Assembly: GCA_007745835.1 (NCBI GenBank)
Contig: CP036424.1
Coordinates: 4,079,968 to 4,143,967, forward strand
Length of the DNA stretch: 64,000 nt
From: Planctomycetes bacterium MalM25
GTDB lineage: Bacteria; Planctomycetota; Planctomycetia; Pirellulales; Lacipirellulaceae
Reading direction: 5' to 3'
In this document: positions 27,795 through 64,000 of the stretch, one piece after another
How the letters are laid out: every line of letters starts with the position of its first letter
Position numbering within the stretch: position 1 is the stretch's first letter
Translations under genes and position numbers: made by a program
The notes under the pieces: model-generated
What the model saw: the letters and a program-made list of their open reading frames with translations, nothing else
Database searches by the model: none
Told to the model about the DNA's origin: nothing

Positions 27795-27840
27795 CTTGGT
27801 ATCAAAGGACTTACGCCAACGCGGCAATCCGCGGTCCTTA

Positions 27841-46200: not shown

Positions 46201-46361
46201 GCGTCAACCACCTGGGGACTTACGGCCGTTGGGCGTTCGCCGAGCTGACCGAGGTGTTCCAAATGGAGAGCGACCTGGAGGCCAAGCTCCAGCAAGAAGT
46301 CGACCGGATGATCGCAACCGCCATCACGGCGGCGGATCGGCCCATAGCAACCGAGGCGTAA
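43260..46361 (+). CDS. Type III-like restriction helicase-nuclease (BPTD_3080-type)
   Basis: This 1033-residue protein starts at ATG 43260 after agaaagg. It is an SF2 helicase: Walker A LKLATGAGKTTVMAML (near 175), DEAH-like LNDEAHHCY (near 313), the SAT-like DLSATPFFLSG, and motif VI QVIGRALRRQSYDL (near 643). The C-terminal nuclease is PD-(D/E)XK: TYRPDFIVLID and LLHLVAEVKGYR (near 955). It is the translocating restriction subunit and cuts unmodified DNA, depending on its methyltransferase partner (family knowledge). The partner gene begins 11 bases downstream. The 1033-residue size fits type III Res subunits and the BPTD_3080 group. Confidence 0.9.
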   Translation: MENPFFDHPILNSPYERPQWHWELDEERQPTQEKVNKRRIADYITPIPKPKKRKKKPEKQQEIVFDEGLGLSTKDQQYDTTSNINEIRAQVEQWRNWPKPADSQVTPETARLLQHWRHHEFSSIRPFFCQVEAVETAIWLTEVAPKLGKAGAKYVDLLAGASELANPGLMRLALKLATGAGKTTVMAMLIAWQTVNAVRRPNSKKFTRGFLIVAPGITIRDRLRVLQPNDPDSYYQSRELVPGDMLPDLQRAKIVITNYHAFKLRERTDVSKGTRGAIEGWREEKLQTTESEGQMLQRVMPDLMGMKNIVVLNDEAHHCYRGKPEELGEEGVLKGDDKKEAEKNREAARLWISGLEAANRQLGVSTVFDLSATPFFLSGSGYAEGTLFPWTASDFSLMDAIECGIVKLPRVPIADNIPGAEMPKFRTLWEHIGPQMPKKGRGATTLDPLSIPVTLQTALEALYGHYEKTYKIWQENGTAVPPCFIIVCNNTSTSKLVYDYISGFHRQSDDGSSQLENGRLALFRNFDEHGNQLARPNTLLIDSQQLESGEALDKNFREMASDELDRFRKEIRVREGSGSKTAENLTDQDILREVMNTVGKPGRLGESIRCVVSVSMLTEGWDANTVTHVLGVRAFGTQLLCEQVIGRALRRQSYDLNEEGQFNVEYADVLGIPFDFTAKPVVAPPAPPRETIHVKAVSPARDDLEIRFPRVQGYRVELPEERLEAEFTKDCILELTPDLIGPSQTRNEGIIGEGVDLNLVHTGDLRRSTLLFHVAKRLLYTKWRDPGDEPKLHLFGQLKRITKQWLDQCLVCKGGTFPAQLMYQEIADMACERITVGITHKLVGKSPIKAVLDPYNPSGSTQNVSFNTSKTDRWETDSRKCHVNWAILDSDWEGEFCRILEQHPQVRGYVKNHNLGLDVPYQYGSEMRTYRPDFIVLIDDGHPPKADGSDDLLHLVAEVKGYRREDAKDKALTMETYWVPGVNHLGTYGRWAFAELTEVFQMESDLEAKLQQEVDRMIATAITAADRPIATEA

Positions 46362-46372
46362 GGAAACCCAAG

Positions 46373-49300
46373 ATGGGCAAGAAGAAGGCCAAGGCGAAAA
46401 AGACCGTCGCGACGCTGCGTCACGAGGACGCTTCGCGCAAGAACATCCCGACCGCCGAGTACGAGTCGGTGATGCGGCAGGAGGAGAAGTCCGCCGTCCA
46501 GGTCGCCTACGAGCGTCGCAACCGGGACCTTGACCCGCAGCTCGTCTGGCGTGGGAAGGACGAGCAAGACTGGTCTGACCTCGTAGTGCACGCCCCGCCG
46601 CTCTACATCCAGGAGAAGGTCCAGCCGAAGGTCCTCATCGACGACCTGCTCCGCCGCACGAAGCAGTCGGAGAAGTCGGCCGACCCGCAGATGGATTTAT
46701 TTGCGGACTTCAACGGGCTGCCGGAGGAAGCGAAGTCGACCGAGTTCTATCAGCACGACGCTAACTGGACGAACCGGCTGGTTCTCGGTGACTCATTACA
46801 AGTCATGGCGTCACTCGCGGAACGCGAAGGACTCCGCGGCAAGGTCCAGTGCATCTACTTCGACCCGCCCTACGGCATCAAGTTCAACTCGAACTTTCAA
46901 TGGTCGACGACCAGCCGTGACGTCAAGGACGGCAAGGCCGACCACATCACCCGCGAACCCGAACAGGTCAAAGCCTTCCGCGACACCTGGCGCGACGGCA
47001 TCCACTCCTACCTCACCTACCTCCGCGACCGCCTCACCGTCGCCCGCGACCTCTTAGCCGACTCGGGCTCCATCTTCGTCCAGATCGGCGACGAGAATGT
47101 TCACCGCGTGCGGGCGGTGATGGATGAGGTTTTTGGGGAGGACAACTGCTGTGCATTGATTCCCTTCTCCAAGACCAGCGGCTTTACTCCAAAGCTTCTG
47201 TCGGAGGTCAACGACTATTTGATCTGGTATGCGAAGCGAAAAGACCAAACGAAATTTCGGCGGCTGTTTACCCGGCGCGAACCCATCGAGAATCCGAAAG
47301 AACGATATATCTGTGTCGAGACCCCCGAAGGCAAGATTATCGATCTTTCACTCGCGCAGAAAATGGGAGAGGAGCCCATTCCAAGCGGGCGACTGTTACG
47401 GCTTCAGCAAGCCACTTCTCAAGGAAAGGGTGTCGATAACAGCGTTCCGGTTTACTGCGAGGGCCGTCCTCATTTTCCGCCAGATACCCGACATTGGTCC
47501 GTCACTGCGAGCGGAATGAATCGGGCGGTGAAGGCGGGGAGAGGCTATTCGGTAGGTAAGACTTTGACGTGGATTTCGTATCGTGATGAAAATGCCTTCA
47601 AGGTACTAAACAACAATTGGTCTCATGATCTTCGAGCCAGCGGCTTTGGTGATGCAAAGCGCTATGTTGTTGAGACGCTGCCGATGGTCGTCCAGCGTTG
47701 CCTCCTCATGGCGACCGACCCCGGGGATTTGGTGTTGGACCCGACGTGCGGGTCGGGGACGACGGCGGTGGTGGCCGAGCAGTGGGGCCGGCGGTGGATC
47801 ACGATCGACACCTCGCGGGTCGCGCTGGCGCTGGCCCGGGCGCGGGTAATGGGGGCGAAGTTCCCGTACTACCTCCTGGCCGATTCCAAAGAGGGACAGC
47901 AGAAGGAAGCGGAAGTGACTCACACGGAGCCGAGCACCGCCCCCACGCACGGCAACATCCGCCACGGCTTTGTCTACGAGCGAGTGCCGCACATAACGCT
48001 TAAGAGCATCGCGAACAACACCGAGATTGACGTGATCTGGGAGCAGTTCCAGGAGAAGCTCGAACCGCTTCGCGAGCAACTAAACAAGACGCTCAGCAAG
48101 AAGTGGGAGGAGTGGGAGATCCCTCGCGAATCGGAGTCAGGCTGGCCGGCCGACGCGAAGAAGGTGCATGCCGCTTGGTGGAAGGAGCGGATCGCCCGGC
48201 AGAAGGAGATCGACGCGTCGATCGCTGCCAAGGCTGACTACGAGTACCTCTACGACAAGCCGTACGAGGACAAGAAGACGGTCCGTGTCGCCGGGCCGTT
48301 CACCGTCGAGAGCCTCTCGCCGCACCGCACCCTGGCGGTCGATGCCGATGACGAGCTGATCGACCCGGAGATGACCGACGTCGAGACCGGCGAGGACGAC
48401 TTCGTCCAGATGATCCTCGAGAACCTGCGGACCGCCGGCGTGCAGCAGGCCCACAAGGAAGACAAGATCGACTTCACGTCGATCACCCCCTGGCCCGGCA
48501 AGTACGTCTGCGCCGAGGGGACCTATGCCGAGGAGGAGGGGCAGCCCGAGAAGCGGGCCGGCGTCTTCATCGGCCCCGAGTTCGGCACCGTCAGCAAGCC
48601 CGACTTGGCCGCCGCCGCCCGCGAGGCGGGGAACGCCGGTTTCGACGTGCTGATCACATGCGCGTTCAATTACGACGCCCACTCGTCGGAGTTCGACCAA
48701 CTGGGGCGACTCACGGTGCTCAAGGCGCGGATGAACGCCGACCTGCACATGGCCAACGACCTCAAGAACACCGGCAAGGGGAACCTGTTCGTCATCTTCG
48801 GCGAACCCGATATCGACGTGCTCGAGGGAGGGACCGACGAGTTATCGAAGGCCGTCGTACTCCGCGAGGAGCGTGTCGCGAGTATCCCTGCGGAACTGAA
48901 GGTCGCTACGGAGAACCTTAAGACGGAGAAGAAGAACAAGCCCAAGAAAGACGACAAGGACGAGAAGGACGCCCATGCCGCACGGCTTGCTGGACTTCAG
49001 GAAAGGATCGACGCCCTCGAACGCGAAGCCGCCTTGGCCGAGCGTTTCCTCGAACGAGCCGCCGTCGCTGAGCCAGGCGAAGTCTTCGTCCAGATTCGCG
49101 GCGTCGATGTTTTCCACCCGACCACGGGCGAGGTCCGCAGCGACGGTCCCGAGGGGATCGCGTGCTGGATGCTCGACACCGACTACAACGAAGAAAGCTT
49201 CTTCGTCCGCCACGCCTACTTCCTCGGCCAGAACGACCCTTACAAGAGCCTCAAGACGACGCTTAAGGCCGAGATCGACGAAGAGGCCTGGAGCACCCTC

Positions 49301-49417
49301 AACAGCGACACCAGCCGCCCCTTCCCGAAGCCAGAGTCCGGCCGCATCGCGGTGAAGGTGATCAATCACCTTGGGGACGAGGTGATGAAGGTTTTCAGGG
49401 TGGAAGAGGAAGAGTAA
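46373..49417 (+). CDS. Adenine-specific DNA methyltransferase (Mod, beta class)
   Basis: This 1014-residue protein starts at ATG 46373 after aaggaaa. Motif IV DPPYGIKFNSNF (near 163) comes before motif I LDPTCGSGTTAVVAEQWGRR (near 453), the beta-class order for N6-adenine or N4-cytosine methyltransferases with a target-recognition domain between. DPPY favours N6-adenine. Large N- and C-terminal extensions (GVFIGPEFGTVSKPDLAAAA and the coiled-coil-like segment near 850-895) are unusual in size compared with typical 550-700-residue Mod subunits. It protects host DNA and provides specificity to the restriction subunit just upstream. The next gene starts four bases after its stop. Confidence 0.9.
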   Translation: MGKKKAKAKKTVATLRHEDASRKNIPTAEYESVMRQEEKSAVQVAYERRNRDLDPQLVWRGKDEQDWSDLVVHAPPLYIQEKVQPKVLIDDLLRRTKQSEKSADPQMDLFADFNGLPEEAKSTEFYQHDANWTNRLVLGDSLQVMASLAEREGLRGKVQCIYFDPPYGIKFNSNFQWSTTSRDVKDGKADHITREPEQVKAFRDTWRDGIHSYLTYLRDRLTVARDLLADSGSIFVQIGDENVHRVRAVMDEVFGEDNCCALIPFSKTSGFTPKLLSEVNDYLIWYAKRKDQTKFRRLFTRREPIENPKERYICVETPEGKIIDLSLAQKMGEEPIPSGRLLRLQQATSQGKGVDNSVPVYCEGRPHFPPDTRHWSVTASGMNRAVKAGRGYSVGKTLTWISYRDENAFKVLNNNWSHDLRASGFGDAKRYVVETLPMVVQRCLLMATDPGDLVLDPTCGSGTTAVVAEQWGRRWITIDTSRVALALARARVMGAKFPYYLLADSKEGQQKEAEVTHTEPSTAPTHGNIRHGFVYERVPHITLKSIANNTEIDVIWEQFQEKLEPLREQLNKTLSKKWEEWEIPRESESGWPADAKKVHAAWWKERIARQKEIDASIAAKADYEYLYDKPYEDKKTVRVAGPFTVESLSPHRTLAVDADDELIDPEMTDVETGEDDFVQMILENLRTAGVQQAHKEDKIDFTSITPWPGKYVCAEGTYAEEEGQPEKRAGVFIGPEFGTVSKPDLAAAAREAGNAGFDVLITCAFNYDAHSSEFDQLGRLTVLKARMNADLHMANDLKNTGKGNLFVIFGEPDIDVLEGGTDELSKAVVLREERVASIPAELKVATENLKTEKKNKPKKDDKDEKDAHAARLAGLQERIDALEREAALAERFLERAAVAEPGEVFVQIRGVDVFHPTTGEVRSDGPEGIACWMLDTDYNEESFFVRHAYFLGQNDPYKSLKTTLKAEIDEEAWSTLNSDTSRPFPKPESGRIAVKVINHLGDEVMKVFRVEEEE

Positions 49418-49420
49418 TCC

Positions 49421-51496
49421 ATGGAATTCCGCATCTCGGACACCTTCACTGCCAGTCTCGCCAAACTCAACGGCGACGAGCAGAAGGCGGTCAAGACGAC
49501 CGCCTTTGATCTGCAGATGGACCCCTCGGGCGCCGGGATGCAGTTCCACAAGCTCGACCGAGCGAAGGACAAGAACTTCTGGTCGGTTCGAGTCAGCCGC
49601 GACATACGACTCATCGTCCACAAGTCGGACGCCAGCCTCTTGCTCTGCTACGTCGATCACCACGACAACGCCTACGCTTGGGCGGCACGGCGTAAGATCG
49701 TGACGCACCCAACAACTGGCGCGGCGCAACTGGTCGAGGTGCGAGAGACCGTCAAGGAGATTACGGTCCCGGTCTACGTCGAGGCACCCACCCCGGTGCC
49801 AAGCAAGCCGCCACTCTTCGCTGACATCACCGATGAAGCTCTCCTGGGATACGGGGTGCCTGAGGAGTGGCTCGCCGACGCCAAGGCGGCGACCGAAGAG
49901 ACGCTTTTCGAGGTTGCCAATCATCTTCCGACGGAAGCGGCCGAAGCCCTACTCAATTTGGCGGTCGGTGAGACTCCGCAGGTTACGACAGCCGCTGCCA
50001 ACGTCGCCGACCCCTTCGACCATCCGGACGCGAAGCGTCGCTTCCGTGTGGTGGGCAGCACCGAAGAACTCGCCCGCGCCCTGGACTATCCCTGGGAAAA
50101 GTGGGCCGTCTTCTTGCACCCCGCTCAGCGGGAGATGGTGCGTGCCAAGTTCAACGGCCCGGCTCGGGTGGCCGGTTCCGCCGGCACGGGCAAAACCGTG
50201 GTGGCCCTGCACCGCGCTGCGTACTTGGCCGAAGCGAACCGGGACGCTCGTGTCTTGGTCACGACGTTCAGCGACCCGCTCGCAGCCGCCTTGCGTGAGA
50301 AGCTCCGTTTCCTGATCGGAAACTCGCCCCGGGTCTTCGAGCGGATCGAGGTCGATGCGATCAAGACCGTGGGCAAACGCTTGTACGAAGCCCGGTTTGG
50401 GGCTATCCGCTTTGCGACCGAGGCCGAACAGAGGACCCAGCTCGGGGCGGCCGCCGCCGATGCGGGAGCCGAGAGCTTCACCGATCAATTCTTGTGGACG
50501 GAGTGGCGTGACGTCGTTGATGCTTGGCAGCTGAATGACTGGGAATCTTATCGTGACGTCAAACGGCTTGGCCGGAAGACAAGGCTACCCGAATCGCAAC
50601 GTCGAACACTGTGGGAAGTCATTAGTGTGGTCCGAGATCGGCTCGCCGAGCAGGGTTCCCTGACGTCCGCCATGATGTTTGGCCGACTGGCAGCAAGGCT
50701 CCGCACGGAAGGGAGCGGGCCGTACGGCTTTATCGTGGTCGACGAAGCCCAAGACATCGGCGTACCCGAACTCCGCTTTCTCTCTGCACTCTGCGGCGAG
50801 GAACCGGCAAGCTTGTTCTTCGCGGGCGACCTCGGCCAACGCATTTTTCAGCCCCCGTTCTCCTGGAAGTCGCTCGGAGTCGATATCCGGGGACGCTCGC
50901 GGACCCTCCGGATCAACTACCGCACATCCCATCAGATCCGCAGCCAGGCGGACCGGCTCTTACCCCCGGAGATCTCCGACGTGGACGGAGCATCCGAGCA
51001 GCGCAAAGGAACGGTATCAGCGTTTGAGGGGCCTGATCCCGTCGTGCAGGTCTTTGATACGCAAGACGCGGAGGAAGCGTCCATTGCGTCGTGGCTTCGC
51101 GGTTGCGAGTCCGCGGGCGTTCGACGCGAAGAGATTGCGGTCTTCGTTCGATCGCAAGAACTAATCGATCGATCGGTGCGTGCCGTGGAAGCCGCGGGGC
51201 AGCCCGTCAACCGTGTTGAAGAGGGCATCCAGACGGTTCCCGGTCACGTGAGCGTGATGACAATGCACCAAGCCAAGGGGCTCGAGTTTCGCTGTGTCGC
51301 CGTCATGGCCTGTGACGACGATCAGCTTCCATCGTTGGAACGCATCGAGGCGATCGGCGACGAGGCTGACCTTGAGGAGGTGTACAGTACCGAACGGCAT
51401 CTCCTTTACGTCGCTTGCACGCGGGCCCGGGACCGGCTGATGGTCACGGGGGTCGATCCCGCTTCGGAGTTCCTCGACGATCTTCTGGGGAATTAG
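49421..51496 (+). CDS. RelE-like domain fused to a UvrD/Rep-type helicase
   Basis: This 691-residue protein starts four bases after the methyltransferase stop. Residues 1-95 look like a RelE/ParE-family fold (MEFRISDTFTASLAKLN, DKNFWSVRVSRDIRLIVHKSD, LLLCYVDHHDNAYAWAARRK). A linker to about 220 is followed by an SF1 helicase: HPAQREMV, Walker A GSAGTGKTVVALHRAA (near 252), Walker B VVDEAQDIG (near 440), LRINYRTS, TMHQAKGLEFRCV (near 613) and YVACTRARDRL (near 660). Helicases of this class appear in Gabija-like defence. Here it is the third gene of the restriction operon, so a role in processing foreign DNA is likely (inference). Whether the RelE-like domain cuts mRNA is unknown. Confidence 0.87.
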   Translation: MEFRISDTFTASLAKLNGDEQKAVKTTAFDLQMDPSGAGMQFHKLDRAKDKNFWSVRVSRDIRLIVHKSDASLLLCYVDHHDNAYAWAARRKIVTHPTTGAAQLVEVRETVKEITVPVYVEAPTPVPSKPPLFADITDEALLGYGVPEEWLADAKAATEETLFEVANHLPTEAAEALLNLAVGETPQVTTAAANVADPFDHPDAKRRFRVVGSTEELARALDYPWEKWAVFLHPAQREMVRAKFNGPARVAGSAGTGKTVVALHRAAYLAEANRDARVLVTTFSDPLAAALREKLRFLIGNSPRVFERIEVDAIKTVGKRLYEARFGAIRFATEAEQRTQLGAAAADAGAESFTDQFLWTEWRDVVDAWQLNDWESYRDVKRLGRKTRLPESQRRTLWEVISVVRDRLAEQGSLTSAMMFGRLAARLRTEGSGPYGFIVVDEAQDIGVPELRFLSALCGEEPASLFFAGDLGQRIFQPPFSWKSLGVDIRGRSRTLRINYRTSHQIRSQADRLLPPEISDVDGASEQRKGTVSAFEGPDPVVQVFDTQDAEEASIASWLRGCESAGVRREEIAVFVRSQELIDRSVRAVEAAGQPVNRVEEGIQTVPGHVSVMTMHQAKGLEFRCVAVMACDDDQLPSLERIEAIGDEADLEEVYSTERHLLYVACTRARDRLMVTGVDPASEFLDDLLGN

Positions 51497-51778: not shown

Positions 51779-54700
51779 TCAACCCTCTCGAGGATCGATC
51801 ACGTACACGTGCATCCCGTGATCGCCGAGAGAAACGTCTCGGTCGAGAACGCGCAGTGCCTCGGATTGAACGAGCGGGGCCGCCGCGAAATCGAACGGGC
51901 ACGATCCTCGGACCCTGGTGAACCCCATCCCTTGGTCGAGGATCACGCGGATCGTTTTCGACTCCCCCCAGAAGAGATCGAGCGACCGGGCGTGCGGGAC
52001 GTCCTTCGTTGCCACGGCGACTCGCAGGTCGATCCGGAAGCCTTTGCCGAGCAACCCTTCGAGGACCTTCTTCTGCTTGGCGAGATCGTTCCAGTTGTGC
52101 TCGACATACCGACCGACACGGCGCTCGGTCACGGCGCACGTTCGTACGAGCAATGAGGGGGACCGACCCGAAGCGTTGGCAAACGGTCGGAGAACCTCGT
52201 AGAGAGCTTTCGCGGTTAGGGGCGACTTCAGGTACCGGTCACGGTACTCGATCCGAGACGGGGGTTCGGCTAAGGCCCGATCAAGAGCCCCCGACATTTC
52301 TCGCAGCGACGTCCAAAACCTGTCGCCGAGAGAACTCATCGGACCGTTCCATTCCTCACCGACGACCCCATAGTCGCACTGGGTCGCTCGGGCTTCCTGG
52401 AGATCGGGCTGCTTGAGTGCAACGCCGGGCAACTCGTTGGCGTCCGGCGACTCACCGCGCACGACTGGATCGACCCCTCCAGCTCCGCCCCAATCGGGGG
52501 ACGGGTTGAGAGCCGTGTTGTTGAACACAGCCCATTCCACGGCCCCGTCTGGACCAGAGAGCCTCGCGCCCAAGACGCCCCCTTGCCTAGCAAGCTGCTT
52601 AGGATCCACGCCGGTGAGTTCAATCCCGAACAGCTCGCATCGCGACCACAGCTGGTGCCGAACGGGCCACGGCAAGTCTTCGTAGAGCGAGGTCGGCAGG
52701 ACGAGGCAGACCGCGGTTTTCCTTTCGCCGATCCGCAATGAAGATAGGCTCCGCCATAGCGGCCAGTGATCGATCTCCCAATCGTCGGATTCGCCCGCGA
52801 CAACGATCTCGACTCGCGTGTACTTCGCATTCGTCAGACGCTGCGTGACCGCATCCGCCAGACTGAGGCTCTCGTGTCGGGTGCGATCGCCAAAGGCGCT
52901 GTACCGCTCGGGCACCTCGAAGAAGGAATCGTACTCGGCGCCGAACCACTCGGCCGCGCTGCCGCGATCGAGCTTGTCGATGTAGCGTTGGGTATCGAAG
53001 TCGAGGAGGCAAGCATGACAAGCCCTTTCGCACTGGCAGTCGAGAAGCTCACGAGCTTCCTCGATCAATCCGCGGACGTCGGTCCCAACCTCGGCCGCGT
53101 AGCCGGCTCCGCCCCCAGCCGTGTCGAAGAGGTAGATGTCTCGGAAGAGGATGTCGCTCTCTCGGTTATCTTGTACCGCCCAACCGATCTCACGGTCTTC
53201 GATGCCGATGCGCCGCGCAAAGGCGGTGCGTAAAGCTATCGCCAACGAATAGGCCACTCCCTCGGGGAGCGTCGCGTGTGGTGTGCCCGGGTGGAGCAAC
53301 CGCAACTGAAACACGTCCGTCGCGTCTTCACCTCCCAACCAGAGGTTGCGCTGGATCGCGAATTGCTCGTCGGCGCCGGTGCAGACATCGGTACTCTCGG
53401 ATTGCCGTCCGGTACGAAGCCGCAAGTGTGGCCCGTCTCGGTCGAAGGGCGCCGGTGTCCCGGAGGCATTGGGGTCCTGCTCGGATGCGCCGCGTCCGCA
53501 CCTCAAGCAGACCGCGAAGCCCTGTCCGTTGGCCCCCTTGTTGTAGTGAAAGACGCGACCCGCCGGATCGTGCCGGAATCGTCCCAATCGCGGATCGGGC
53601 AAGCTGATCCACTCACCCTGGCACGACAGGCGGGGTTCGGCGGCAGGCATGAACACAGCGCGGTCGCCGACTGTCTTCGGCCTGCCGGTGCGGATGTCGA
53701 CGGCGAACCCTGATGGCTGGATGTAGGAGTTGTAGATCACGCGTCCTGTTTCGCATCGGGGGCAAGTCGATGGCCGTGAGGTGTTGCTGCCCGATTCGCC
53801 GCACCCTTCGCAGAACCAGAAGATGCGGATCGCTTGGGCTTCTGAGAAGGACTCGTCTTGGGGCGGTAGTCGCCAGTGCATCGTGAGTCCGCTGGATAGA
53901 TAAGAAAGCCCGTCGATAACGATGGAGTTGCCCGGCGCGTACTCACGGATGGCGATGGGGAGCTCACGCGAAGGGTAGTCCTGTCGCTGCTGCCCATTGT
54001 CTTCACGGGATTGCGAAGCCTGGGCCTGTCTCTGCTGACCGACTTGGATCGACTCGATGCTGGTGTTGACGAAGGGGAGGACATGCACCGGGAACCCGTG
54101 CGCCGGCAGGAACCCGCTGCTCACCAGGTCCTTGAGCAGGTACTCGTCGTTGTGGCGCCGCAGCTGAACCGTTAGCGCCCGCTGCTCCGAGGACGACTTT
54201 TGTCCGGGCGTCGGCGGGCCCCCCGCAAGAGCCAGCTCCGCTTCGAGCGATTCGCTCCCGACTCGCCAAGTTGCAGCGATTTCGTCGATGGCCAGGGCGG
54301 CGCGGTCGAAGAGAGCCCCGATGCTTTCGGACGCCAGGGCCGTGCGGGCAACGATACGAGCAACGCTCCGACGGATGACTTCATCCGACTCGGCCGGCCC
54401 ACGCAGCCAGGCTACCAGCTTGTCGGCGTGTGCCGGCTCTTCGTCGCGTGAGAACATCCATTCGCTCGTTGTCTTGATCGCATTATCCAGTCCGAGCGCA
54501 CGCAAGTAGGTCGCGAGCAAGAACGCCTGCACATGGCGTTGGACGATCCGAGCGCTGTCCAGTCCAACCCGCGGGACGTGGATCGGCGTGGTGAACGGCC
54601 AGAGAGGATTATCGAAGACCGCTTGGCCGTGAGGCTGATCTTGGCACAGGGTTAATGTTGTGGCCCGGTCGATCCCGCGTCGCCCAGCCCGCCCGGACCG

Positions 54701-57700
54701 TTGGAGCCAGTTCGCGGGGCCAGGCGGCACGTTGTTGAGCGCAACGACGGTTAGCCCTCCGATATCGATCCCCATCTCCATCGTGGTCGAGCAGCTCAGG
54801 AGGTTGGTCTCGCCACGGCGGAATCGTCTTTCGAGATGCTGGAGACGGGCTTTATTGATCTGCCCTGAGTGCTCGGCGATTTCGAAGTACTCAGACCACG
54901 CCGCGATCCGATCGTTGAACTCATTCCAGACCCCGGCCCCGCGAGCCGACCGGACGATCGGGTCGGCGTTGAGCCAGGCCGTGATCTCCGACTGAGGAAC
55001 AGGGGTCCCCTCTGACTGGCGGAACGGGAACTTCAGACGTGGCATCTCAACATCTTGGCATCTCCCGAAGACCCTCAGCGTCCGCTCGGTGTGGTAGGGC
55101 GAAACCCCGTTGAGCGTGTGAGATAGCAGCCGCCTGGTCACCGGACAAAACGGCCCCTTGGCGACCAAGCGAACCTCGGCTCTAGCGAAGTCAAGCCGCC
55201 GACCGTCCCCAGAGTGGTCGAAGACGCCCGCGTTCACCAAAGCCCTCCATGCCTCCCTAAGGATTCTGTCGACTCGTTGCTGATCCGCTGACACGTCCTC
55301 CCTCAGGCGGAGACCGAGACGGAGCAACTGCACGATCCGCTGACCGGTTCTCCTGCCGGGTGCGAGGGTGGGCCATCGGACGGCTCGCGTCGAGACTGCC
55401 TCGGCATCGGGCTCCACCAGCTGCTTGGGCCGAAAGTTGAGACCGATCCACCGGAGTATTTCTTCACTGACGCGGATGCCGTAGCGGTCCCGAATGAAGA
55501 AGTCGATGAACAGCGAAAGGAAGGCACGCCAGTTTTCTTGATCGCCACCCGCTTCCTCCCAGTCTTGAGGCGGCCGTATCGTGTCGATCCCCGCGAAATG
55601 AAGCGAGGCCAGTCCCAGGGTCTCGAGTGTCGCCCCGCGTCGTGGCCTCCTGGCGAGCTCGCGGAACAAGAGCATCTCCGCCAAGACTCTTGGGGCGAGG
55701 CTCGAGGGATCGTATCGCGACTTCGAGGCTTGTGGGATGAACCGCTCGACCGGCATTTGGCTTGCGAGGCTGTCGACGAGTTCAGGCCAGGAAATCGCGG
55801 AGACGGGCCCGTTGATCTTGCGACGCTCTTCCTCAAGTTCGTCTTCCAGCGACTCGCAAATGGAGCCGCCTCCGAGCGTCTCGATTGCCGCCTCCAATTG
55901 CGCCACTTTCGCCAGATCCCCGCGACCGACTTGTGACCACAACTTGTGATAGATGAAACTTCGGACGTACCCTCGCTCCGACTCGAACTGCATGCGGCTC
56001 GCGAATCGCGCGGTCCCTTGTCGGGAGTCGCTGAACGTGATCATCTGCCGGCCTCCGAAAGGAAGCTCGGCTTCCTGATCGGGCTTTGGCGGGGTGTGCC
56101 CGAGCAGAGCCGGGACAGCGATCCCCAGGTAAAAGGGCGCCCCCACTCGGAACGGCGTGAAACGGGGCGCCCTCGCCGTCGAGCGTTCACCGCAGGTCAC
56201 GCACCTGGGTCGGTTGTCTCGCTCGTCGCGTCGGGCGAGCCTGACACTTACGCTGCCACCACCGGCGGGGTTGATCCCGCCGGTCAAGGCGTCGTAGGTC
56301 GCGGGGGCGTCGGTGTAGTCGTTGCCCTCGCACGAACAGATCAGTTCGTAGTCACTTTGGGGATCGGGTTCATCGGTGACCTCGTCGAGATCCTCTTCGG
56401 GTTCCTCGTCCGGATCAATCTGGAAGTCATTCGCAGGCGTGTTCGGAACAACCCGCCTCGGACGCAGGGCATTCTCAGCGGTCTCGGCGGCCGCCAAGTA
56501 GACTTCACCGCAGCCGCGGCAGACGACCACTTCGAAGACCTGACTCCCGCAGTGTTCGCACCGTTCGCGTGAGGAGAAAAAGAGCTCGCCGAAGGGCCAA
56601 TCGGCGGGTGCCTGCGTCGATTGCTTCCCGCGGCACTGCGCGTTCCAACAGGCCCAGAGTCCGGCCTGCGTCCTCATGAAAAAGTGGCCCCGGAGCGGCA
56701 GCAAGGCGCCTTGCGGTCCCTCGTCCGACAGGTGGTCGAGGTACTTGAGAGTCGTTTCGGAGCTGGCGGAGCCGAGAAGGTCGCCGATCTGACTGAGTGG
56801 GAGCGGGCTCTCGGTCAGCGTGTGGCGGAGGTCGCGGATTACCTTGCTCGACGCGAGTTGATCGAAGGTCGCGTCGTCCGCTTCCGAGCCAGCCAGCGCT
56901 TCCAGGGTGGGCAGGGGTCCATTCGCTCGCTCGTAGCCATCCAGCTCCGGCGTGACACGCCGGCCGCGGACAACGCTTACCTGCGATGAATCGATCCCGG
57001 CCAGGTCGGCCAGGTACTCCTGCAACTGTGTGTCGGCGTCGCCTTCGGAGGAACTGATCGTCGCGGAGGTCGCGATAAAATGCACCTTGTCCGGAGTGAC
57101 TTCGAACGCCTCCATGACCCGGCGAAGCAGGAGCGACACCTCCGCGGCGTTGGAGCCTAGGTAGGTGTGGGCTTCGTCGAGGACGATCCAGCGGAGAAGC
57201 CCTTTCGACTTCTCGACGATTGGGGCGTCGATGTTGCGCACGAGCATGTACTCCAACATGGTCGCGTTCGTGACCAAGATCGGCGGCGGAGAGTCCCGCA
57301 GCAACTTCCGGGAGAGCACCTCCTCCGGGGTCTTGCGTTGGGCTTCGTTCTTGTGCTCTTCGGGCGTCGCCCCGTTGTAGAGACAGAACCGGACGCCCCC
57401 GCCGAGGCCCGCCGTCCATGCCGCGAGCCGCTCGCGCTGCGAGTTGATCAACGCGTTGAGTGGGTACAGGAAAAGAGCGCGGACGCCTTCGAGCGGCTTC
57501 CGGCGCGACGCCTCGAACTCGCGAACGAGGTCGTCCAAGATCGGGATCAGAAAGCACTCGGTTTTCCCGGACGCCGTGCCGGTGCTAACGATCGTCGATC
57601 GAGCCGGTTCCTGCCTGAGCGTTTCCCAGGCTTCGATCTGATGCTTGTAAGGGTGCAAGGTTCGCGCGAAACGGCGGTCGGCGTGCTCTTCGGGCGGCTT

Positions 57701-57946
57701 GTCGAGCAGGTCAATCGTCAACGGGTGGAGGTCCACCTCATCCAGCCTCCGCGGCTGTGACTCGTACGCGAAGAGTGACTCAAAGACGGGCTCACCGAGC
57801 AGGCTACCGTTGGCAGGCGGGAGCTGCTCAAGGCGTTGCCGGACATACTCGCGCAGTCCGGGGTGTGCGGGCTGGAGATCGCCAACGGTCGCCCTCGCGG
57901 CTCGCTGGCAGAGGGTTTCCGCGATCGTAGAGAAGTAGGCAGACAT
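51779..57946 (-). CDS. druE: Druantia DruE helicase with DUF1998
   Basis: This 2055-residue protein starts at ATG 57946. The N-terminal helicase has Walker A STGTASGKTE (121-130) and DEAH (IVLDEAHTYLG, 254-264). ITFSDSRQGTARFA, SCSTTMEMGIDIGG and motif VI QRSGRAGRRG (near 1080) complete the SF2 core. The C-terminal DUF1998 carries FDTAGGGAGYAAEV and the Cys cluster DCQCERACHACLLDFD (near 1638). Size and layout match DruE of Druantia (established family description); DrmB of DISARM is much smaller. It lies 62 bases downstream of the druH-like gene, giving the druH-druE order of Druantia type III. It would act on phage DNA. Confidence 0.88.
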   Translation of the reverse strand: MSAYFSTIAETLCQRAARATVGDLQPAHPGLREYVRQRLEQLPPANGSLLGEPVFESLFAYESQPRRLDEVDLHPLTIDLLDKPPEEHADRRFARTLHPYKHQIEAWETLRQEPARSTIVSTGTASGKTECFLIPILDDLVREFEASRRKPLEGVRALFLYPLNALINSQRERLAAWTAGLGGGVRFCLYNGATPEEHKNEAQRKTPEEVLSRKLLRDSPPPILVTNATMLEYMLVRNIDAPIVEKSKGLLRWIVLDEAHTYLGSNAAEVSLLLRRVMEAFEVTPDKVHFIATSATISSSEGDADTQLQEYLADLAGIDSSQVSVVRGRRVTPELDGYERANGPLPTLEALAGSEADDATFDQLASSKVIRDLRHTLTESPLPLSQIGDLLGSASSETTLKYLDHLSDEGPQGALLPLRGHFFMRTQAGLWACWNAQCRGKQSTQAPADWPFGELFFSSRERCEHCGSQVFEVVVCRGCGEVYLAAAETAENALRPRRVVPNTPANDFQIDPDEEPEEDLDEVTDEPDPQSDYELICSCEGNDYTDAPATYDALTGGINPAGGGSVSVRLARRDERDNRPRCVTCGERSTARAPRFTPFRVGAPFYLGIAVPALLGHTPPKPDQEAELPFGGRQMITFSDSRQGTARFASRMQFESERGYVRSFIYHKLWSQVGRGDLAKVAQLEAAIETLGGGSICESLEDELEEERRKINGPVSAISWPELVDSLASQMPVERFIPQASKSRYDPSSLAPRVLAEMLLFRELARRPRRGATLETLGLASLHFAGIDTIRPPQDWEEAGGDQENWRAFLSLFIDFFIRDRYGIRVSEEILRWIGLNFRPKQLVEPDAEAVSTRAVRWPTLAPGRRTGQRIVQLLRLGLRLREDVSADQQRVDRILREAWRALVNAGVFDHSGDGRRLDFARAEVRLVAKGPFCPVTRRLLSHTLNGVSPYHTERTLRVFGRCQDVEMPRLKFPFRQSEGTPVPQSEITAWLNADPIVRSARGAGVWNEFNDRIAAWSEYFEIAEHSGQINKARLQHLERRFRRGETNLLSCSTTMEMGIDIGGLTVVALNNVPPGPANWLQRSGRAGRRGIDRATTLTLCQDQPHGQAVFDNPLWPFTTPIHVPRVGLDSARIVQRHVQAFLLATYLRALGLDNAIKTTSEWMFSRDEEPAHADKLVAWLRGPAESDEVIRRSVARIVARTALASESIGALFDRAALAIDEIAATWRVGSESLEAELALAGGPPTPGQKSSSEQRALTVQLRRHNDEYLLKDLVSSGFLPAHGFPVHVLPFVNTSIESIQVGQQRQAQASQSREDNGQQRQDYPSRELPIAIREYAPGNSIVIDGLSYLSSGLTMHWRLPPQDESFSEAQAIRIFWFCEGCGESGSNTSRPSTCPRCETGRVIYNSYIQPSGFAVDIRTGRPKTVGDRAVFMPAAEPRLSCQGEWISLPDPRLGRFRHDPAGRVFHYNKGANGQGFAVCLRCGRGASEQDPNASGTPAPFDRDGPHLRLRTGRQSESTDVCTGADEQFAIQRNLWLGGEDATDVFQLRLLHPGTPHATLPEGVAYSLAIALRTAFARRIGIEDREIGWAVQDNRESDILFRDIYLFDTAGGGAGYAAEVGTDVRGLIEEARELLDCQCERACHACLLDFDTQRYIDKLDRGSAAEWFGAEYDSFFEVPERYSAFGDRTRHESLSLADAVTQRLTNAKYTRVEIVVAGESDDWEIDHWPLWRSLSSLRIGERKTAVCLVLPTSLYEDLPWPVRHQLWSRCELFGIELTGVDPKQLARQGGVLGARLSGPDGAVEWAVFNNTALNPSPDWGGAGGVDPVVRGESPDANELPGVALKQPDLQEARATQCDYGVVGEEWNGPMSSLGDRFWTSLREMSGALDRALAEPPSRIEYRDRYLKSPLTAKALYEVLRPFANASGRSPSLLVRTCAVTERRVGRYVEHNWNDLAKQKKVLEGLLGKGFRIDLRVAVATKDVPHARSLDLFWGESKTIRVILDQGMGFTRVRGSCPFDFAAAPLVQSEALRVLDRDVSLGDHGMHVYVIDPREG

Positions 57947-58008
57947 GGCGAATTTGCGTGTTGCAGGCTCACTGGGACCGTGGGCGGTGTCGTGATGGCG
58001 GATACAGA

Positions 58009-61000
58009 TCAGGCCGACTCATCGGTCGCTATCGCCTCCAACCAGTCGGGTTGCTCGTCGCTACGGCGACCAATCAAGCGAATCATCGCGAGCTGGAAGG
58101 CGTAGTCGAACCAGGTGGCGTCGAAAGAACGGAGGCGTTGATACCGGGTGAGCTGAGACGGATTGATCGGGATTCCGTAGACGGCATGTATCGCCGCCAA
58201 CGAGGGACCGTTGATGACTGCCCACTCGTGCGAGTAGCGGTAGGTGTTGAGCAGGCCCGGCGTGCCCTCAAGAAGGCCGCGCGCTTCCGACCCATACTTG
58301 GGGCGCTCGCTTGGCCAGGTCTGGCGACTATCAAAACGCTCGTGGCGTGAGACCAAGGCATTGAATCCGACCGAGTAGTCGGAATCGGTCGAGGAGAGTC
58401 GAAGCTGGGTCGGCGGCTTGTCTACTAGTCCTGCCGTGAATAGGCAGGCCGATACCACCCCGGCCGACGGGTGGTGATGCCACGCACAGTCGACGAAATT
58501 GGCAATAGGAAGGCCGGCATGCTGATTCGCCAGCTCGGCCGACAGACCAGCTTGCTCGAATTGCGTGTGCCGGTGCCTCATCAAGCGGGCAGTAGCGCGG
58601 ACCCAAGCCTCGATGGGAACCAGGCACCACAAGAACGGCAGTTCTTCCAAACGCCCCCAGAGCGCAGCATCGGACGGGTTAAGAAGCCCGACCCGGGCGG
58701 CGGCGATGGGATTGCGTATGAGCCCGGTAACGGCTTCATAGGTGGTGATCGGCAACTCGATCGATGCCTCGGTCACCGCATCGACTTTCGCCCAATCCGG
58801 GGCGCCGAAGTCCTCGGTAACCCGGGTGTAGAAAGTGTCCCAGACCTCTCGTCTTTTCCGCTCTTCACGGATCGTTGAGACCTCATCGAAGCTGTAATCG
58901 GCTTGCGATTTTTCGGGGGGCGCGTCGGGAAGCTCTCCGGCAGTGATGCGTAGCGGTCGCAACAGATCCCCGGAAGCCGTTCGGCCCGTGACCAGGTAAT
59001 AGCCCGGCTCCGCGTCCGCCAGATCGATACGCCAAACCCCTGGCGATTCCTCGGCAACGCAGTGCGGGGGCAGCACGATCTCTGGATCGTTCAGCGCGAT
59101 GACCCCCATCCTCGCGGGATCGTCGGCGAGGGCGTCCACGAGATCGGTGTCTTGGAGACGGACCCGCTCTTGATCGGTTTGGTCGGCCGCTGCCGGCTGA
59201 AGTTTGTAACCGTACCGGCCGATGCGAAGCTCCATCACGCGATCATGGGTATTTCCGATCGCGACCGAGAGTCGGATCAAGCAATCGCGGTCGTCCGTTT
59301 CCGCCAGGAGTCCTGTCGCGCGTTCTTTTGCCCGAGAGAGCGGGTACTCCCAGACCCCGTCGGAAGCCTCACGGAACGCATCGATCACCACGTCGTTCGC
59401 GACATCGATGAGAAGAGGCCGCTTGCCGTCAGGTCGTACAACACGGATCCAAAGGCCGTCGAACTGCTCGATCGCGATCCCTCTCTTAGCGTCGATCGAT
59501 GTCCCGGCGACGGTGATCAGTTGACACGACACCGTTGGCGTAACGAGCACCAACGTCGCGACGCAATCGTTCGGAAAGCTCAATCTCGTCGCAATCCGGT
59601 CGGGCCGTTCTCCATCGAGGGTGACGTCCACGACGAGGTCATCGCCGCTTGCAGTCGCTCGGGCGCTCACCCCCGGAGAGTCGGCAAGGCTGAAGCCGCA
59701 TGTCCCGATATTACGGAACGTCCAGCGACCCCGATGCTGATCGCGTCCGGGCCTAGTCTCGAGTCGGAAGTCTGGCGGTAAGATGGTGGCCCGCGTCTGC
59801 AGCTTCGTCTCACCGGCCACCGAGGCTCGGAGGATCACGTTGCCGACGCAGTCGCTTCCCATCCTCTGCCAATCGCCGCCGCGGATCGGACGCCAACGCA
59901 CCTCTTCCCGTGTCAGCTTCCTGGATTGGTCGGTGGCGTCCAGTCGAAGCTCAAACACCTCGGGGACGTCGAGCCATGCTTCGGATCCACCGGTGCCGGA
60001 GCACCAACGTCTGCCTCGGAGTTCGTAGAGGAACTCCGTGCTGTCGCTGTGGCCGGTCCGCACGCAGTAGGTCGTATCGTCGTGCTCGATCTGTGCAGAA
60101 CCTTGGATGCGGAAGAGCCTCCGACCCTCGATCTGGCTGGGCAGTTCGTCCGCCCGCTCCGCGTCGATGAGGGCGGACTCGGGCGAAGCGACCAAGACCG
60201 AGGGCTGACGCGTGCTCACACTACCCACTCCGATCAGACTTTGCGGGGCGTCTTCGCGAAAGACCCAGGGGGAGTCCGGGAGCATGTCACCCCCGGGAAG
60301 AATCGCGTCGAGAACGTGTTCCGTACCGCTGCGGACCTCGAGTCGAGTTGGGTGCTCCGTACTGACCGGGACGATCCGCGCACTCCCAGCGGGACTCAGG
60401 CTTAGTTCAGGGTCCTCGCTGGACGCCGTGTAGGGTTGTGTGAATTTACAAACCGCAGCGTGCTTCGAACCGGCCCTTAAGAAGCCGGTCATGCGGGGAA
60501 AGAGCGGGGCTCCGGGCTCGAGGCCACACAGAGATCGAAAACGAGCGGCGTTGATCCTGGGCGGAAACTGGAGCCGGCGTTCGAGGTAGTAGCCTTGCTC
60601 ACCCTCGGTGAGGCCGGTGATCACCGCGAGAAGCTGACGATCAACGGCGATCGGTTCTGGGGAGTCCAACAAGGAGAGCAAGACGGCTTGCCCTTCTTGG
60701 TCCTCAAGGCGGAACGGGAGTTGGTGATGCCAATCCCGCGAATTCTCATCGAGCCAATCCCGACGGCTGACTTGCTGCTGTGCCGCTTCCGTGCAGTCCT
60801 TGCGTATCTTCGCGACCGCCTCGACGGTTCGTGCAAGCAGGTGGAGGAATCCGGGGGTGCGGAGGGTTTCTGGCAACCGAGTTCGATGCTGTTCGATGAT
60901 CCGATCGACAGACTCTTCGGGGAACTGTTCGTGCTCCTGCAAACTTTGTTTGAGCAGGCGGCTGAGGCTGGCTCCGTCGTTGCGGAGCGTATTCACCGGG

Positions 61001-61398
61001 AAGCCGCCCTGGCAAACCAGGGTCGCGAGGAATCGACGAGAAGATCCTGTGTTGATCACTGCCAGGTTCCACCAAGCGAGACCGCTCAACGTGTAGTCGC
61101 ACAAATCGGATCGGGTCCAGACGCTCGGATCACCGCCGATACCGTTAAGGATGGTGACCCACTCCCACGGACCACGCTGGTGCTCGATACGGAACCACTC
61201 GGAGGCAAACAAGCAGAAGGCGGCGTGCTCGCTCGATGTGCGGAGGCGACCAGCGAGCGTCAGACGATTCCGGAGCTCGATGCGGATCTGCTCGATCTCG
61301 TGCTCGGTAACCCGGTAGGCGTAGAGCGGAGAACCATCCGCGGACTTCAGTCCGGCGCGGTTAATGACCGAGGAGAGGATCTCGTGACACGTTGGCAC
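58009..61398 (-). CDS. druH: Druantia DruH-like protein (STY4851/ECs_5259 family)
   Basis: This 1129-residue protein starts at GTG 61398 and has no recognisable enzymatic motif. Its opening (CHEILSSVINRAGLKSADGSPLYAYRVTE) and segments such as FASEWFRIEHQRGPWEW and LSGLAWWNLAVINTGSSRRF match the STY4851/ECs_5259 group as I recall it, which is DruH of Druantia type III. The middle is beta-rich, and the C-terminus is Trp-rich (WLEAIATDESA end). It is followed by druE with a 62-base gap, so both share one transcript. Its biochemical role is unknown; DruH and DruE together suffice as the type III system. Confidence 0.82.
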   Translation of the reverse strand: MPTCHEILSSVINRAGLKSADGSPLYAYRVTEHEIEQIRIELRNRLTLAGRLRTSSEHAAFCLFASEWFRIEHQRGPWEWVTILNGIGGDPSVWTRSDLCDYTLSGLAWWNLAVINTGSSRRFLATLVCQGGFPVNTLRNDGASLSRLLKQSLQEHEQFPEESVDRIIEQHRTRLPETLRTPGFLHLLARTVEAVAKIRKDCTEAAQQQVSRRDWLDENSRDWHHQLPFRLEDQEGQAVLLSLLDSPEPIAVDRQLLAVITGLTEGEQGYYLERRLQFPPRINAARFRSLCGLEPGAPLFPRMTGFLRAGSKHAAVCKFTQPYTASSEDPELSLSPAGSARIVPVSTEHPTRLEVRSGTEHVLDAILPGGDMLPDSPWVFREDAPQSLIGVGSVSTRQPSVLVASPESALIDAERADELPSQIEGRRLFRIQGSAQIEHDDTTYCVRTGHSDSTEFLYELRGRRWCSGTGGSEAWLDVPEVFELRLDATDQSRKLTREEVRWRPIRGGDWQRMGSDCVGNVILRASVAGETKLQTRATILPPDFRLETRPGRDQHRGRWTFRNIGTCGFSLADSPGVSARATASGDDLVVDVTLDGERPDRIATRLSFPNDCVATLVLVTPTVSCQLITVAGTSIDAKRGIAIEQFDGLWIRVVRPDGKRPLLIDVANDVVIDAFREASDGVWEYPLSRAKERATGLLAETDDRDCLIRLSVAIGNTHDRVMELRIGRYGYKLQPAAADQTDQERVRLQDTDLVDALADDPARMGVIALNDPEIVLPPHCVAEESPGVWRIDLADAEPGYYLVTGRTASGDLLRPLRITAGELPDAPPEKSQADYSFDEVSTIREERKRREVWDTFYTRVTEDFGAPDWAKVDAVTEASIELPITTYEAVTGLIRNPIAAARVGLLNPSDAALWGRLEELPFLWCLVPIEAWVRATARLMRHRHTQFEQAGLSAELANQHAGLPIANFVDCAWHHHPSAGVVSACLFTAGLVDKPPTQLRLSSTDSDYSVGFNALVSRHERFDSRQTWPSERPKYGSEARGLLEGTPGLLNTYRYSHEWAVINGPSLAAIHAVYGIPINPSQLTRYQRLRSFDATWFDYAFQLAMIRLIGRRSDEQPDWLEAIATDESA

Positions 61399-61525
61399 AA
61401 TGGTTACCAGTTAGACCGGAATCTGACTTGCTAAGATTGTCGTGGATCGGCCGTAATAGTCCAGTCGGTCTTTCCTGAGCAGAAATGCGAAGAGGCATGA
61501 CGGTCTCGGTGAAAGCATTGAATAG

Positions 61526-62146
61526 TTTGCGCGACTGCACCCGACCGTCTGCCGTTTCACTTCGGAACAGTACTACGACGGCCGCCTCGCCAGCCGACAG
61601 GAGGCCGCTGAGCGCGCACTCACGGGCCCGTCCGCCCTCGGCATGACAGGCCTCGCCATGGTCGCGGTGGCCCACGCGGGTAACCAGAACGAGTCATTTG
61701 AAGAGCTCGACGCCGTCGATTCTTTGGTGGCACATTTGCTGGACGGCCAACACCTCTGGACGCCCGGCGAGAACCAGGACCCGCGGCCGCTGACGATCGA
61801 AGACGTCCTCATCGTGGCCCCCTACAACCGTCAAGTCGCCTCGTTGACGAGGAGGCTCCCCGATGGTGCGCGGGTTGGGACGGTCGACAAGTTCCAGGGA
61901 CAGGAGGCCCCCGTCGTGATCTACTCGATGACCACCTCATCGGCCGAGGACGCCCCGCGGGGCATGAGTTTCCTGTACAGCCCCAACCGGTTGAACGTCG
62001 CGACTAGCCGCGCCCAGGGGCTGGCGATCGTCGTCGCTTGCCCGGCGCTGCTCGAGGCCGAGTGCGGAACGCCCGAGCAGATGCGATTGGCGAACGGGTT
62101 GTGCCGTTTCGCCGAGATGGCCAGGGTCATCGATCGACCAACGTAA
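61526..62146 (+). pseudogene. 3' remnant of a DNA2/TM0106-like helicase gene
   Basis: The frame from the codon after a TAG (61523-61525) to 62146 encodes LHPTVCRFTSEQYYDGRL, typical of the RMHP region before the last motifs of SF1 AAA_12-type helicases (DNA2/TM0106 group). It then has VLIVAPYNRQVASLTRRL, VGTVDKFQGQEAPVVIYSM and LNVATSRAQGLAIVV, the normal C-terminal motifs V and VI. The N-terminal two thirds, including Walker A and B, are missing. An internal ATG at 61643 would give a 167-residue fragment that cannot be an active helicase. It is probably a relic of another defence or repair gene, broken next to the Druantia locus. Confidence 0.8.
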
Positions 62147-62387: not shown

Positions 62388-62426
62388 TTTGGTCGAGTCG
62401 GAAAGACGGGAGGCTTAGATGGCCTT
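62388..62426. repeat. Right copy of imperfect 39-nt direct repeat
   Basis: 32 of 39 bases match the copy at 31099-31137. It lies just before the stop codon (62427) of the RNase H-like gene on the minus strand, as the left copy lies across the stop of the MBL gene. The two copies are about 31.3 kb apart and bracket all defence genes. Confidence 0.6.
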
Positions 62427-63140
62427 CTACGCGCTGGCGGGTGACGGTGGATTCGACTCGATTCGTCGGCGCCCCTGCTTGGTCTGGTAGCGGGCTCCAC
62501 AGTTTGGGCATCGAAGTAGCCAAGCCCAACAATACCGTTGTCCCGGTTTGCGAGTCTGGCCCGTGACCTCTCGACGGGTGACCGATACTTGGCACTTCGG
62601 ACAGGGATCACCGGCTTGAAGTGGCCGAGAGGTAGGACGGTTGGTGGGCCGCTGAGACGGCCGGCTGCTGCGAGTGGGGGTAGGTCGGTACCCGCGGTCG
62701 GTCAGCTTCAGCGGCGACTGGGCAGCGCCGCGAGCGAGGCGTACGCACTCAGAGAAGTTGTCGTCGTCGCGGTTGGCGAGGGCGACGACGACGTCCCTGT
62801 CGGCAGCGGCGTTGTCGAGATCCCGCCAAAGATCGGCATGCTTGATGGGCTTGCCTCCCACCCGGGCCTTCCAGCTGTCGAGTCGCCACCGCTCTAGGTT
62901 GCCGCTGGCGATCGCGTCGTAGACACGACGTCGATCGAGGTAGAGCCGAACGCTCGAGCCTGCCGGGCAGGACCGCAGGGCGGACGTCGCCGCCCTGATC
63001 GCCATCCGATCGGCCGTCGTGTGGCGGTAGGCGTGCTGAATCACGCGTCGGCTGGTCGGGGTGACGGCGATCGCGGCGTAGGAGCCAAGGCCATCCGGGT
63101 GGGCGGAGAGGCCGTGGGCGTAGGCGTGATAACGCGGCAT
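62427..63140 (-). CDS. RNase H-like protein with lost active site and C-terminal zinc ribbon
   Basis: This 237-residue protein follows RNase HI over residues 5-140. Where E. coli RNase HI has Asp10, Glu48, Asp70 and Asp134, this protein has His9 (YAHGLS), Ala47 (ADRMAIRAA), Asp69 (LYLDRRRV) and Val133 (SECVRLARG). Three of four catalytic acids are therefore gone, and hydrolysis is unlikely. HADLWRDLDNAAA matches the NRDLWQRLD segment. After a Thr/Arg/Ser/Pro-rich linker (about 150-172) a zinc ribbon follows (CPKCQVSV, CPNCGARY). It may bind nucleic acid without cutting (inference). The start is ATG at 63140. The residue alignment is by eye. Confidence 0.78.
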   Translation of the reverse strand: MPRYHAYAHGLSAHPDGLGSYAAIAVTPTSRRVIQHAYRHTTADRMAIRAATSALRSCPAGSSVRLYLDRRRVYDAIASGNLERWRLDSWKARVGGKPIKHADLWRDLDNAAADRDVVVALANRDDDNFSECVRLARGAAQSPLKLTDRGYRPTPTRSSRPSQRPTNRPTSRPLQAGDPCPKCQVSVTRREVTGQTRKPGQRYCWAWLLRCPNCGARYQTKQGRRRIESNPPSPASA

Positions 63141-63394: not shown

Positions 63395-63721
63395 CTATCG
63401 GGCGTTCGCGTCGTTACGGTCGTCCACGAGCGGCTTGCGTATCAAACCGTACTTGTAGGTGGCCACCGGGCGGTTTGACCGGAACTCGATGATGACCGAG
63501 TAGAGCACGCTCCTCGCCTCGAGAGCGAAGTGGTTAGTGTAGTAATTGAGGGGTTCCTCCTCGATTTCGTCGTTGATGCCCCTGGCGAAACGCTCTGCCT
63601 CGTCGAGAGTTCGAAAGACGCCTACCGGGATGGTACAGTTCTCGTTAGCGCAAACGAGGTAGGTCGCCTGATCGTCCTCCTCTGATACGGTCGGCGCGTT
63701 CAGCTGTTGTTCGGACAACAT
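63395..63721 (-). CDS. Small protein of unknown function
   Basis: From ATG 63721 this is a 108-residue protein; an upstream in-frame ATG at 63775 would add 18 residues. It has a Cys pair (VCANENCTIPVGVF) and a helix-strand arrangement (TLDEAERFARGINDEIEEE, SVLYSVIIEFRSNRPVATYKYG) reminiscent of small alpha/beta proteins. No family or catalytic motif is recognised. Base composition is more AT-rich than the surrounding genes. It stands near the RNase H-like gene on the same strand, 254 bases upstream; a link is not shown. Confidence 0.6.
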   Translation of the reverse strand: MLSEQQLNAPTVSEEDDQATYLVCANENCTIPVGVFRTLDEAERFARGINDEIEEEPLNYYTNHFALEARSVLYSVIIEFRSNRPVATYKYGLIRKPLVDDRNDANAR

Positions 63722-63913
63722 GTAGATATCTCGCTTCTGCGGGGTAGTAAGGCGGGCGACACCTCGGTCACCCAACTCACTCCCATACCCTGTCGCGTCC
63801 CCTACTCTCTCTTGGTGGGATTTTTTTCGCGGGGGTTGTCCGCGTCTTGAGTACGTGACCCGGTGGCAGGCTTCGCGTCAGGTCGGCGTTCGAAGGGACG
63901 GCTCGGTAGCGAT

Positions 63914-64000
63914 TCAAGCCGCGGCCTCGGCGGCCGCCTTACGAGCGAGCCGCTGGCAGCGTCGCCCCTCTTCGCAGAACGGCTTGCCGTGCAGCCAGCG
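63914..64000 (-). CDS. C-terminal fragment of a gene running past the window end
   Basis: The last 28 codons and stop of a minus-strand gene are present (WLHGKPFCEEGRRCQRLARKA then an Ala/Glu tail). Two Cys residues seven apart suggest a zinc or Fe-S site, but too little is present for a call. Confidence 0.45.
   Translation of the reverse strand, partial: RWLHGKPFCEEGRRCQRLARKAAAEAAA

Follow-up and report, generated by a model that had tools for sequence, protein, structure and literature searches.

The window analysed here is a stretch of 64,000 nucleotides from Planctomycetes bacterium MalM25 (contig CP036424.1, positions 4,079,968 to 4,143,967), a genome that consists of one 4.72-Mb contig (C1 below). 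Near its right end, the window contains a gene for a protein that combines an RNase HI-like domain with a zinc ribbon and is predicted to be catalytically dead (hereinafter type A). The gene lies in an integrated element, and the relevant features, in window coordinates, are:

27721..27795 (+): tRNA-Arg (tcg), left end of the integrated element
27900..29288 (-): tyrosine integrase adjoining the tRNA (PF00589, E=7.1e-10)
40456..41325 (-): PD-(D/E)XK (RecB/exonuclease-type) nuclease, backbone
41378..41905 (-): 175-aa backbone protein, no family
43236..51496 (+): cargo, type III restriction-modification (helicase/Res, methyltransferase) and UvrD-like helicase
51779..61398 (-): cargo, Druantia-type genes
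51779-57946 (-): DEAD/MZB helicase, presumably DruE-like
58009-61398 (-): DruH (PADLOC E=2.4e-58)
61532..62146 (+): nuclease-helicase remnant, C-terminal 200 aa, 64% identical to a 1120-aa same-genus protein
62388..62428 (+): island-only repeat with the core TTGGTCGWRTCGGAAAGGCGGGAG, ending at the stop codon of the type A gene
62427..63140 (-): type A gene, predicted catalytically dead RNase HI with C-terminal zinc ribbon, 237 aa, ATG start
62430..62615 (-): zinc ribbon region of type A (C180xxC183, C211xxC214), a homologue of the ribbon found in the intact RNase HI-zinc ribbon enzymes
63395..63775 (-): 126-aa ORF between both dead RNase H genes, no match in the family search
63914..64000 (-): window part of the type B gene (C1:4143881-4144339 = L037:3882-4340), predicted dead RNase HI-like protein, 152 aa, no zinc ribbon

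The tRNA-Arg gene, the integrase and a 47-bp direct repeat of the 3' part of the tRNA (96% identical, same orientation, C1:4178246-4178292) delimit an element of about 70.5 kb with the type A gene inside, and near 28 kb there is a drop in G+C content, from about 0.66 to 0.63. The Rfam search of the whole window detected only the tRNA, and in the region 61000-64000 it yielded two chance-level matches below the gathering threshold.

Comparison with a second island in the same genome revealed four matching proteins encoded in the same order and on the same strand, namely the PD-(D/E)XK nuclease (85% aa identity), the 175-aa protein (74%), the dead RNase H-ribbon protein (61%) and a DUF932 protein (58%). 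Each island also carries a clamp-loader-like AAA gene near the DUF932 gene, and the two AAA genes show no match to each other. The intervening genes are different, with restriction and Druantia genes in the focal island and an ABC-3C-type gene (PF20282) in the second, which argues that the RNase H-like protein, located between the integrase/tRNA end and the direct repeat and kept with backbone genes in both elements, is a backbone component, as distinct from the variable defence cargo. The possibility that the type A gene is a part of Druantia or another defence system was rejected: no PADLOC model matched at E<=0.001, and the locus of its paralogue lacks Druantia.

Several other features of the islands deserve mention. 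The approximately 40-bp repeat with the core TTGGTCGWRTCGGAAAGGCGGGAG is present in six copies in the genome, all of them on the plus strand and located within or close to the two islands, several at gene 3' ends (window positions 31095-31149 and 62388-62428; C1:4144506, 967816, 978889 and 992178). The copy at C1:967816 lies just beyond the mapped stretch, a weaker copy is located at the end of the paralogue gene, and two copies flank the segment that holds both dead RNase H genes. The repeat could represent a module boundary or a terminator; an integron attC site was set aside by eye, there being no GTT/AAC core pairs. At L038:3161-6587 in the second island, an ABC-three-component gene (CTD6, PF20282) lies beside the gene for a 623-aa protein that appears SMC-like by eye. 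Farther to the right in the focal element, large ORFs (L050:9971-12946 and L050:17453-19969), which we take to encode NACHT plus sulfatase-modifying-factor proteins, share near-identical stretches.

Fold, active site and substrate contacts

The type A protein consists of an RNase H domain (about residues 1-145), a linker (about 146-175) and a ribbon (about 176-225). It matches the Pfam RNase_H profile PF00075 (37.5 bits, E=3.3e-9, cut-off 25.8), and phmmer retrieved solved E. coli-type RNase HI chains with E-values down to 3.6e-13. Against the NCBIfam equivalog NF001236 it scores 58.6 bits, below the cut-off of 160, as compared with 187.7 for the genome's own rnhA. The AlphaFold2 model, obtained from an alignment of the window protein with 17 relatives, contains the complete RNase HI fold, with strands b1-b5, helices aA-aE and the handle helix aC; pLDDT is 83-97 in 10-residue blocks over residues 1-150, about 58-83 in the ribbon and about 50-60 in the linker. 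In a Foldseek search of the PDB, E. coli RNase HI structures rank first (E about 1e-14, TM (target) about 0.85-0.93), and comparison of the zinc ribbon with solved structures gave no match below E=0.02. The RNase H fold that an earlier note had read from the sequence of this locus is thus borne out, and the linker and CxxC...CxxC ribbon that it described are present as C180xxC183...C211xxC214.

In the phmmer residue alignment, D10, E48, D70 and D134 of the E. coli enzyme correspond to H9, A47, D69 and V133, so the residue-by-residue numbering given in that note is right: three of the four acids are replaced, by His, Ala and Val, and one, D69, is retained. The His124 loop of the E. coli enzyme (GHxGxxENERCD) is absent, with ANRDDDNFSECV in its place. 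T43 and R46-M47 are unchanged (T42 and R45-M46 in type A), and the RM motif and the LAR segment, also claimed to be conserved, are kept in the alignment. The equivalents of W85, W90, K91, K96, K99 and W104 are retained as well. The residues N44, N45 and Q72, which contact the RNA/DNA hybrid in RNase HI, are replaced in type A by A43, D44 and R71, and the equivalents of W81 and K87 are missing; given these changes, specific binding of hybrids may be weaker or different. The protein, linker included, is strongly basic (pI 10.7; 42 K+R vs 19 D+E).

From these substitutions we infer that the type A protein does not cleave RNA, since a two-metal site cannot form from the one Asp that remains here, or from none in the paralogue described below. 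Judging from the retained handle tryptophans, basic residues and ribbon and from the strong basicity, the protein probably binds nucleic acid. The earlier note, too, suggested nucleic-acid binding, or else a decoy role.

The type A paralogue, selection and origin

The second type A copy (C1:998862-999548) is about 62% identical to the first over residues 5-233. By alignment, its residues at the four acidic positions are H/A/G/V (at the last of these, the automatic column count reads A and the alignment reads V), so that D10, E48 and D134 are gone, as is the His124 loop. The pair has diverged with ps of 0.618 vs pn of 0.273, and constraint is strongest in the zinc ribbon (pn 0.21, ps 0.86) and in the handle (pn 0.20). 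When 300 neutral simulations were evolved to the observed nucleotide divergence of the pair, they accumulated 4.6 stops on average, with only 1% of the runs remaining stop-free, and reached a mean amino acid identity of 42% (maximum 49%), as against 0 stops and 62% identity observed. The type A pair has diverged under purifying selection.

The earlier note had reasoned that close homologues sharing the substitutions would indicate a genuine non-catalytic family, and close homologues with intact DEDD residues a copy that had simply decayed. The nearest homologue, at 62% identity, carries the same His, Ala and Val, with Gly in place of D70 as a further loss; intact proteins are found only at a distance, at about 27-35% identity. 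Shared substitutions together with purifying selection argue that the dead site has become fixed in a small lineage, as opposed to decay. By parsimony, the common ancestor of both copies would already have lacked D10, E48 and D134. Among the candidates scored (at most 7 or 9 in most genomes), no further type A members were detected in 396 genomes of the order or in 392 genomes of the phylum; type A has two known members, both in one genome.

At E<=1e-11, the type A protein has matches in at least 15 of the 396 order genomes, namely the focal genome (with the two type A copies), one genome of the same genus (type B) and 13 others, in which the full or partial matches show 27-35% identity. All 13 carry a homologous zinc ribbon C-terminal to the RNase HI domain and retain the motifs DG, NNRMEL, SDS, GHAG and NERCD. 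One more intact ribbon enzyme comes from outside the order (G301), so that the active site is intact in 14 of the 14 distinct ribbon proteins found outside the focal genome, and both copies within it are defective. These intact RNase HI-zinc ribbon enzymes (loci L041, L057, L058 and L171-L182, in 14 genomes) include one, in G039, that sits among chromosomal genes; for L041, no NCBIfam family specific to the RNase HI-zinc ribbon architecture was matched.

The ribbon of the type A protein aligns well with those of the intact enzymes (KPGQ..Y..W.L.C..C....Y), which suggests, as the simplest scenario, that type A descended from an RNase HI-zinc ribbon enzyme. In the RNase H tree, type A forms one clade (100/100) with a very long stem; in the fuller tree, from which all viral rows were dropped, it joins the ribbon enzymes with a support of 71/96, not starred. 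With a smaller set that lacked the extra intact enzymes, and from which four long viral rows had been dropped, the result was borderline against grouping type A with the intact ribbon enzymes (p-AU 0.055); these placement tests were made once the trees were already known.

Other degenerate RNase HI-like proteins

PF00075 matches occur at five places in the focal genome, one of which is the intact rnhA. The end of the type B gene lies some 0.77 kb upstream of the type A start, and the gene runs past the window edge. The first acidic position of the type B protein is unaligned and the others read T, A and Q; a relative from a genome of the same genus (L042, 41% identical) reads Y, A, D and K. 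The gene of this relative is arranged tail-to-tail with that of a 1120-aa nuclease-helicase, and the helicase remnant in the window, in which the C-terminal 200 aa of that helicase survive at 61532-62131 (+), is likewise tail-to-tail with the type A gene. Types A and B as one group gave a p-AU of 0.345, and the two may or may not derive from a single shared inactivation.

The fifth match (C1:1514707-1514949, within C1:1514641-1514973; L036:1372-1962, plus strand) belongs to a second paralogue that is distributed across the order. With one of its members, L024, as the query, 57 of 57 genomes of the order gave matches at E<=1e-8, a count to which canonical rnhA rows also contribute. Among the 30 top-ranking loci (L141-L170, from 30 genomes), Asp occupies the D70 position in no more than 3 and the D10 position likewise in 3 (with Glu in 15), the E48 position has Glu in 27, and Trp stands at the equivalents of W85 and W104 (handle, DLW) in all 30. 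RNase HI-like paralogues with sites that appear degenerate are thus conserved order-wide on chromosomes.

Across 106 RNase H-like ORFs that we compared, all five residues (DEDHD) are intact in 90 and at least one acid is missing in 16, and the substitutions in type A are above chance. Exclusion of a truncated ORF (L122), an opposite-strand artefact (L074) and a repeat of the focal protein (L033) reduces the defective set to 13. This set includes the IMG/VR viral contigs L115, L116, L126, L127 and L133 and a gut phage record (L140); in L116, a relative of the intact SSU5-type phage-plasmid RNase H, D10 and D70 are lost. None of the named phage copies (SSU5, Cyrano, pJN2-26 and USC-1) is among the defective rows. 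Searches with the type A protein itself gave no tblastn match at 1e-5 in phage and plasmid collections and none in a close scan of IMG/VR, and three weak loci in the genome contigs (L047, L048 and L049). The matching frame of L047 presumably encodes a prolyl-tRNA synthetase, which makes the shared peptide a chance similarity, and L048 was rejected as a type A candidate, the weak match being to the order-wide paralogue.

Possible functions and relationship to known systems

We propose, with a probability of roughly 60%, that the type A protein is a pseudoenzyme that binds nucleic acid and acts as an accessory factor when the element is replicated, recombined or maintained. Under this proposal, the two-metal site of an RNase HI-zinc ribbon protein would have been lost, with the fold, the aromatic and basic handle and the ribbon held by selection. 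The gene would be part of the backbone of a family of tRNA-integrated elements, near the genes for the DUF932 protein, the clamp-loader-like AAA protein and the PD-(D/E)XK nuclease, neighbours whose replication roles are assigned by family name. The handle and the ribbon would bind nucleic acid, most likely an RNA/DNA hybrid or a primer-template, and the cutting of RNA would be left to the intact chromosomal rnhA.

A possible, albeit unlikely, alternative is that the dead protein acts as an RNase H antagonist, covering primer hybrids or R-loops of the element and shielding them from the host RNase HI. Type A is, after all, a dead version of precisely the enzyme by which such hybrids are removed, in a host with an intact rnhA, with replication-type neighbours and with a second dead RNase H gene in tandem; nevertheless, the hybrid-contact residues are altered, and the origin, the primer RNA and the R-loop of the element are postulates. 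The loss of these contacts would fit with a scaffold or regulator that interacts with a protein partner, for example the clamp-loader-like AAA protein, the DUF932 protein or RNA polymerase, and has no need to bind nucleic acid, as would the conservation of the neighbourhood in two islands. We consider this rather unlikely in view of the retained handle tryptophans and basic residues, the strong basicity of the protein and the placement of the zinc ribbon among its most constrained parts.

Activity through an unusual metal site, formed by H9 and D69 or by ribbon residues, appears highly improbable. H9 and D69 do occupy two former metal-site positions, and Halo-RNase HI is described as an active enzyme despite having neither the catalytic His nor the basic protrusion (PMC9719913); but the paralogue has Gly in place of D70 and so retains none of the four acids, and D10, E48, D134 and the His124 loop are absent from both proteins. 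Decay of an RNase HI-zinc ribbon enzyme into a pseudogene can be practically dismissed: the truncated helicase next door indicates that the locus does lose genes, but the open frame, the substitutions common to two diverged copies, and the purifying selection evident from pn/ps and the neutral simulation argue against this reading.

RNase HI is among the best-studied enzymes, and the type A protein resembles it in the fold, the RM motif, the W85/W90 handle, the DLW motif and the LAR segment (rnhA; PF00075, NF001236); it differs in the loss of D10, E48, D134 and His124 and in the addition of the linker and the zinc ribbon. With the RNase HI-zinc ribbon enzymes of the order and phylum, it shares the architecture and a homologous ribbon, whereas those enzymes keep all catalytic residues and are only about 27-35% identical to it. 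The RNase HI of SSU5-type phage-plasmids is likewise encoded within a replication gene set, but has no ribbon, and that copy is not defective. We know of no zinc ribbon in RnhP, the RNase HI of Bacillus subtilis NCIB 3610. RnhP resembles type A in being encoded on a mobile replicon, a plasmid, but is reported to be active (PMC9719913). RNase HI on mobile replicons and active RNase HI without the catalytic His and the basic protrusion are already known (same source). In the open-licence literature, we found neither a natural dead bacterial RNase HI nor a bacterial RNase HI-zinc ribbon protein, and no treatment of YpdQ in connection with RNase HI.

Inactive RNase H folds are represented by YpdQ of B. 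subtilis, which has the fold without the activity, and by the eukaryotic Prp8; unlike type A, these belong to other lineages and other contexts. A natural dead version under selection, along with the active parent architecture in relatives, provides a clean pair for the question of what the fold does without catalysis, and the order-wide second paralogue extends this question beyond a single element. It is a decidedly speculative idea, to which we give little weight, that the dead RNase HIs, two in tandem here, are hybrid shields against the host RNase HI and that the order-wide degenerate paralogues on chromosomes are domesticated hybrid readers. Dead RNase H probes are used for R-loop mapping; should the type A protein read or shield RNA/DNA hybrids, it would be a natural bacterial counterpart of these probes and could offer mobile elements a means of controlling priming.
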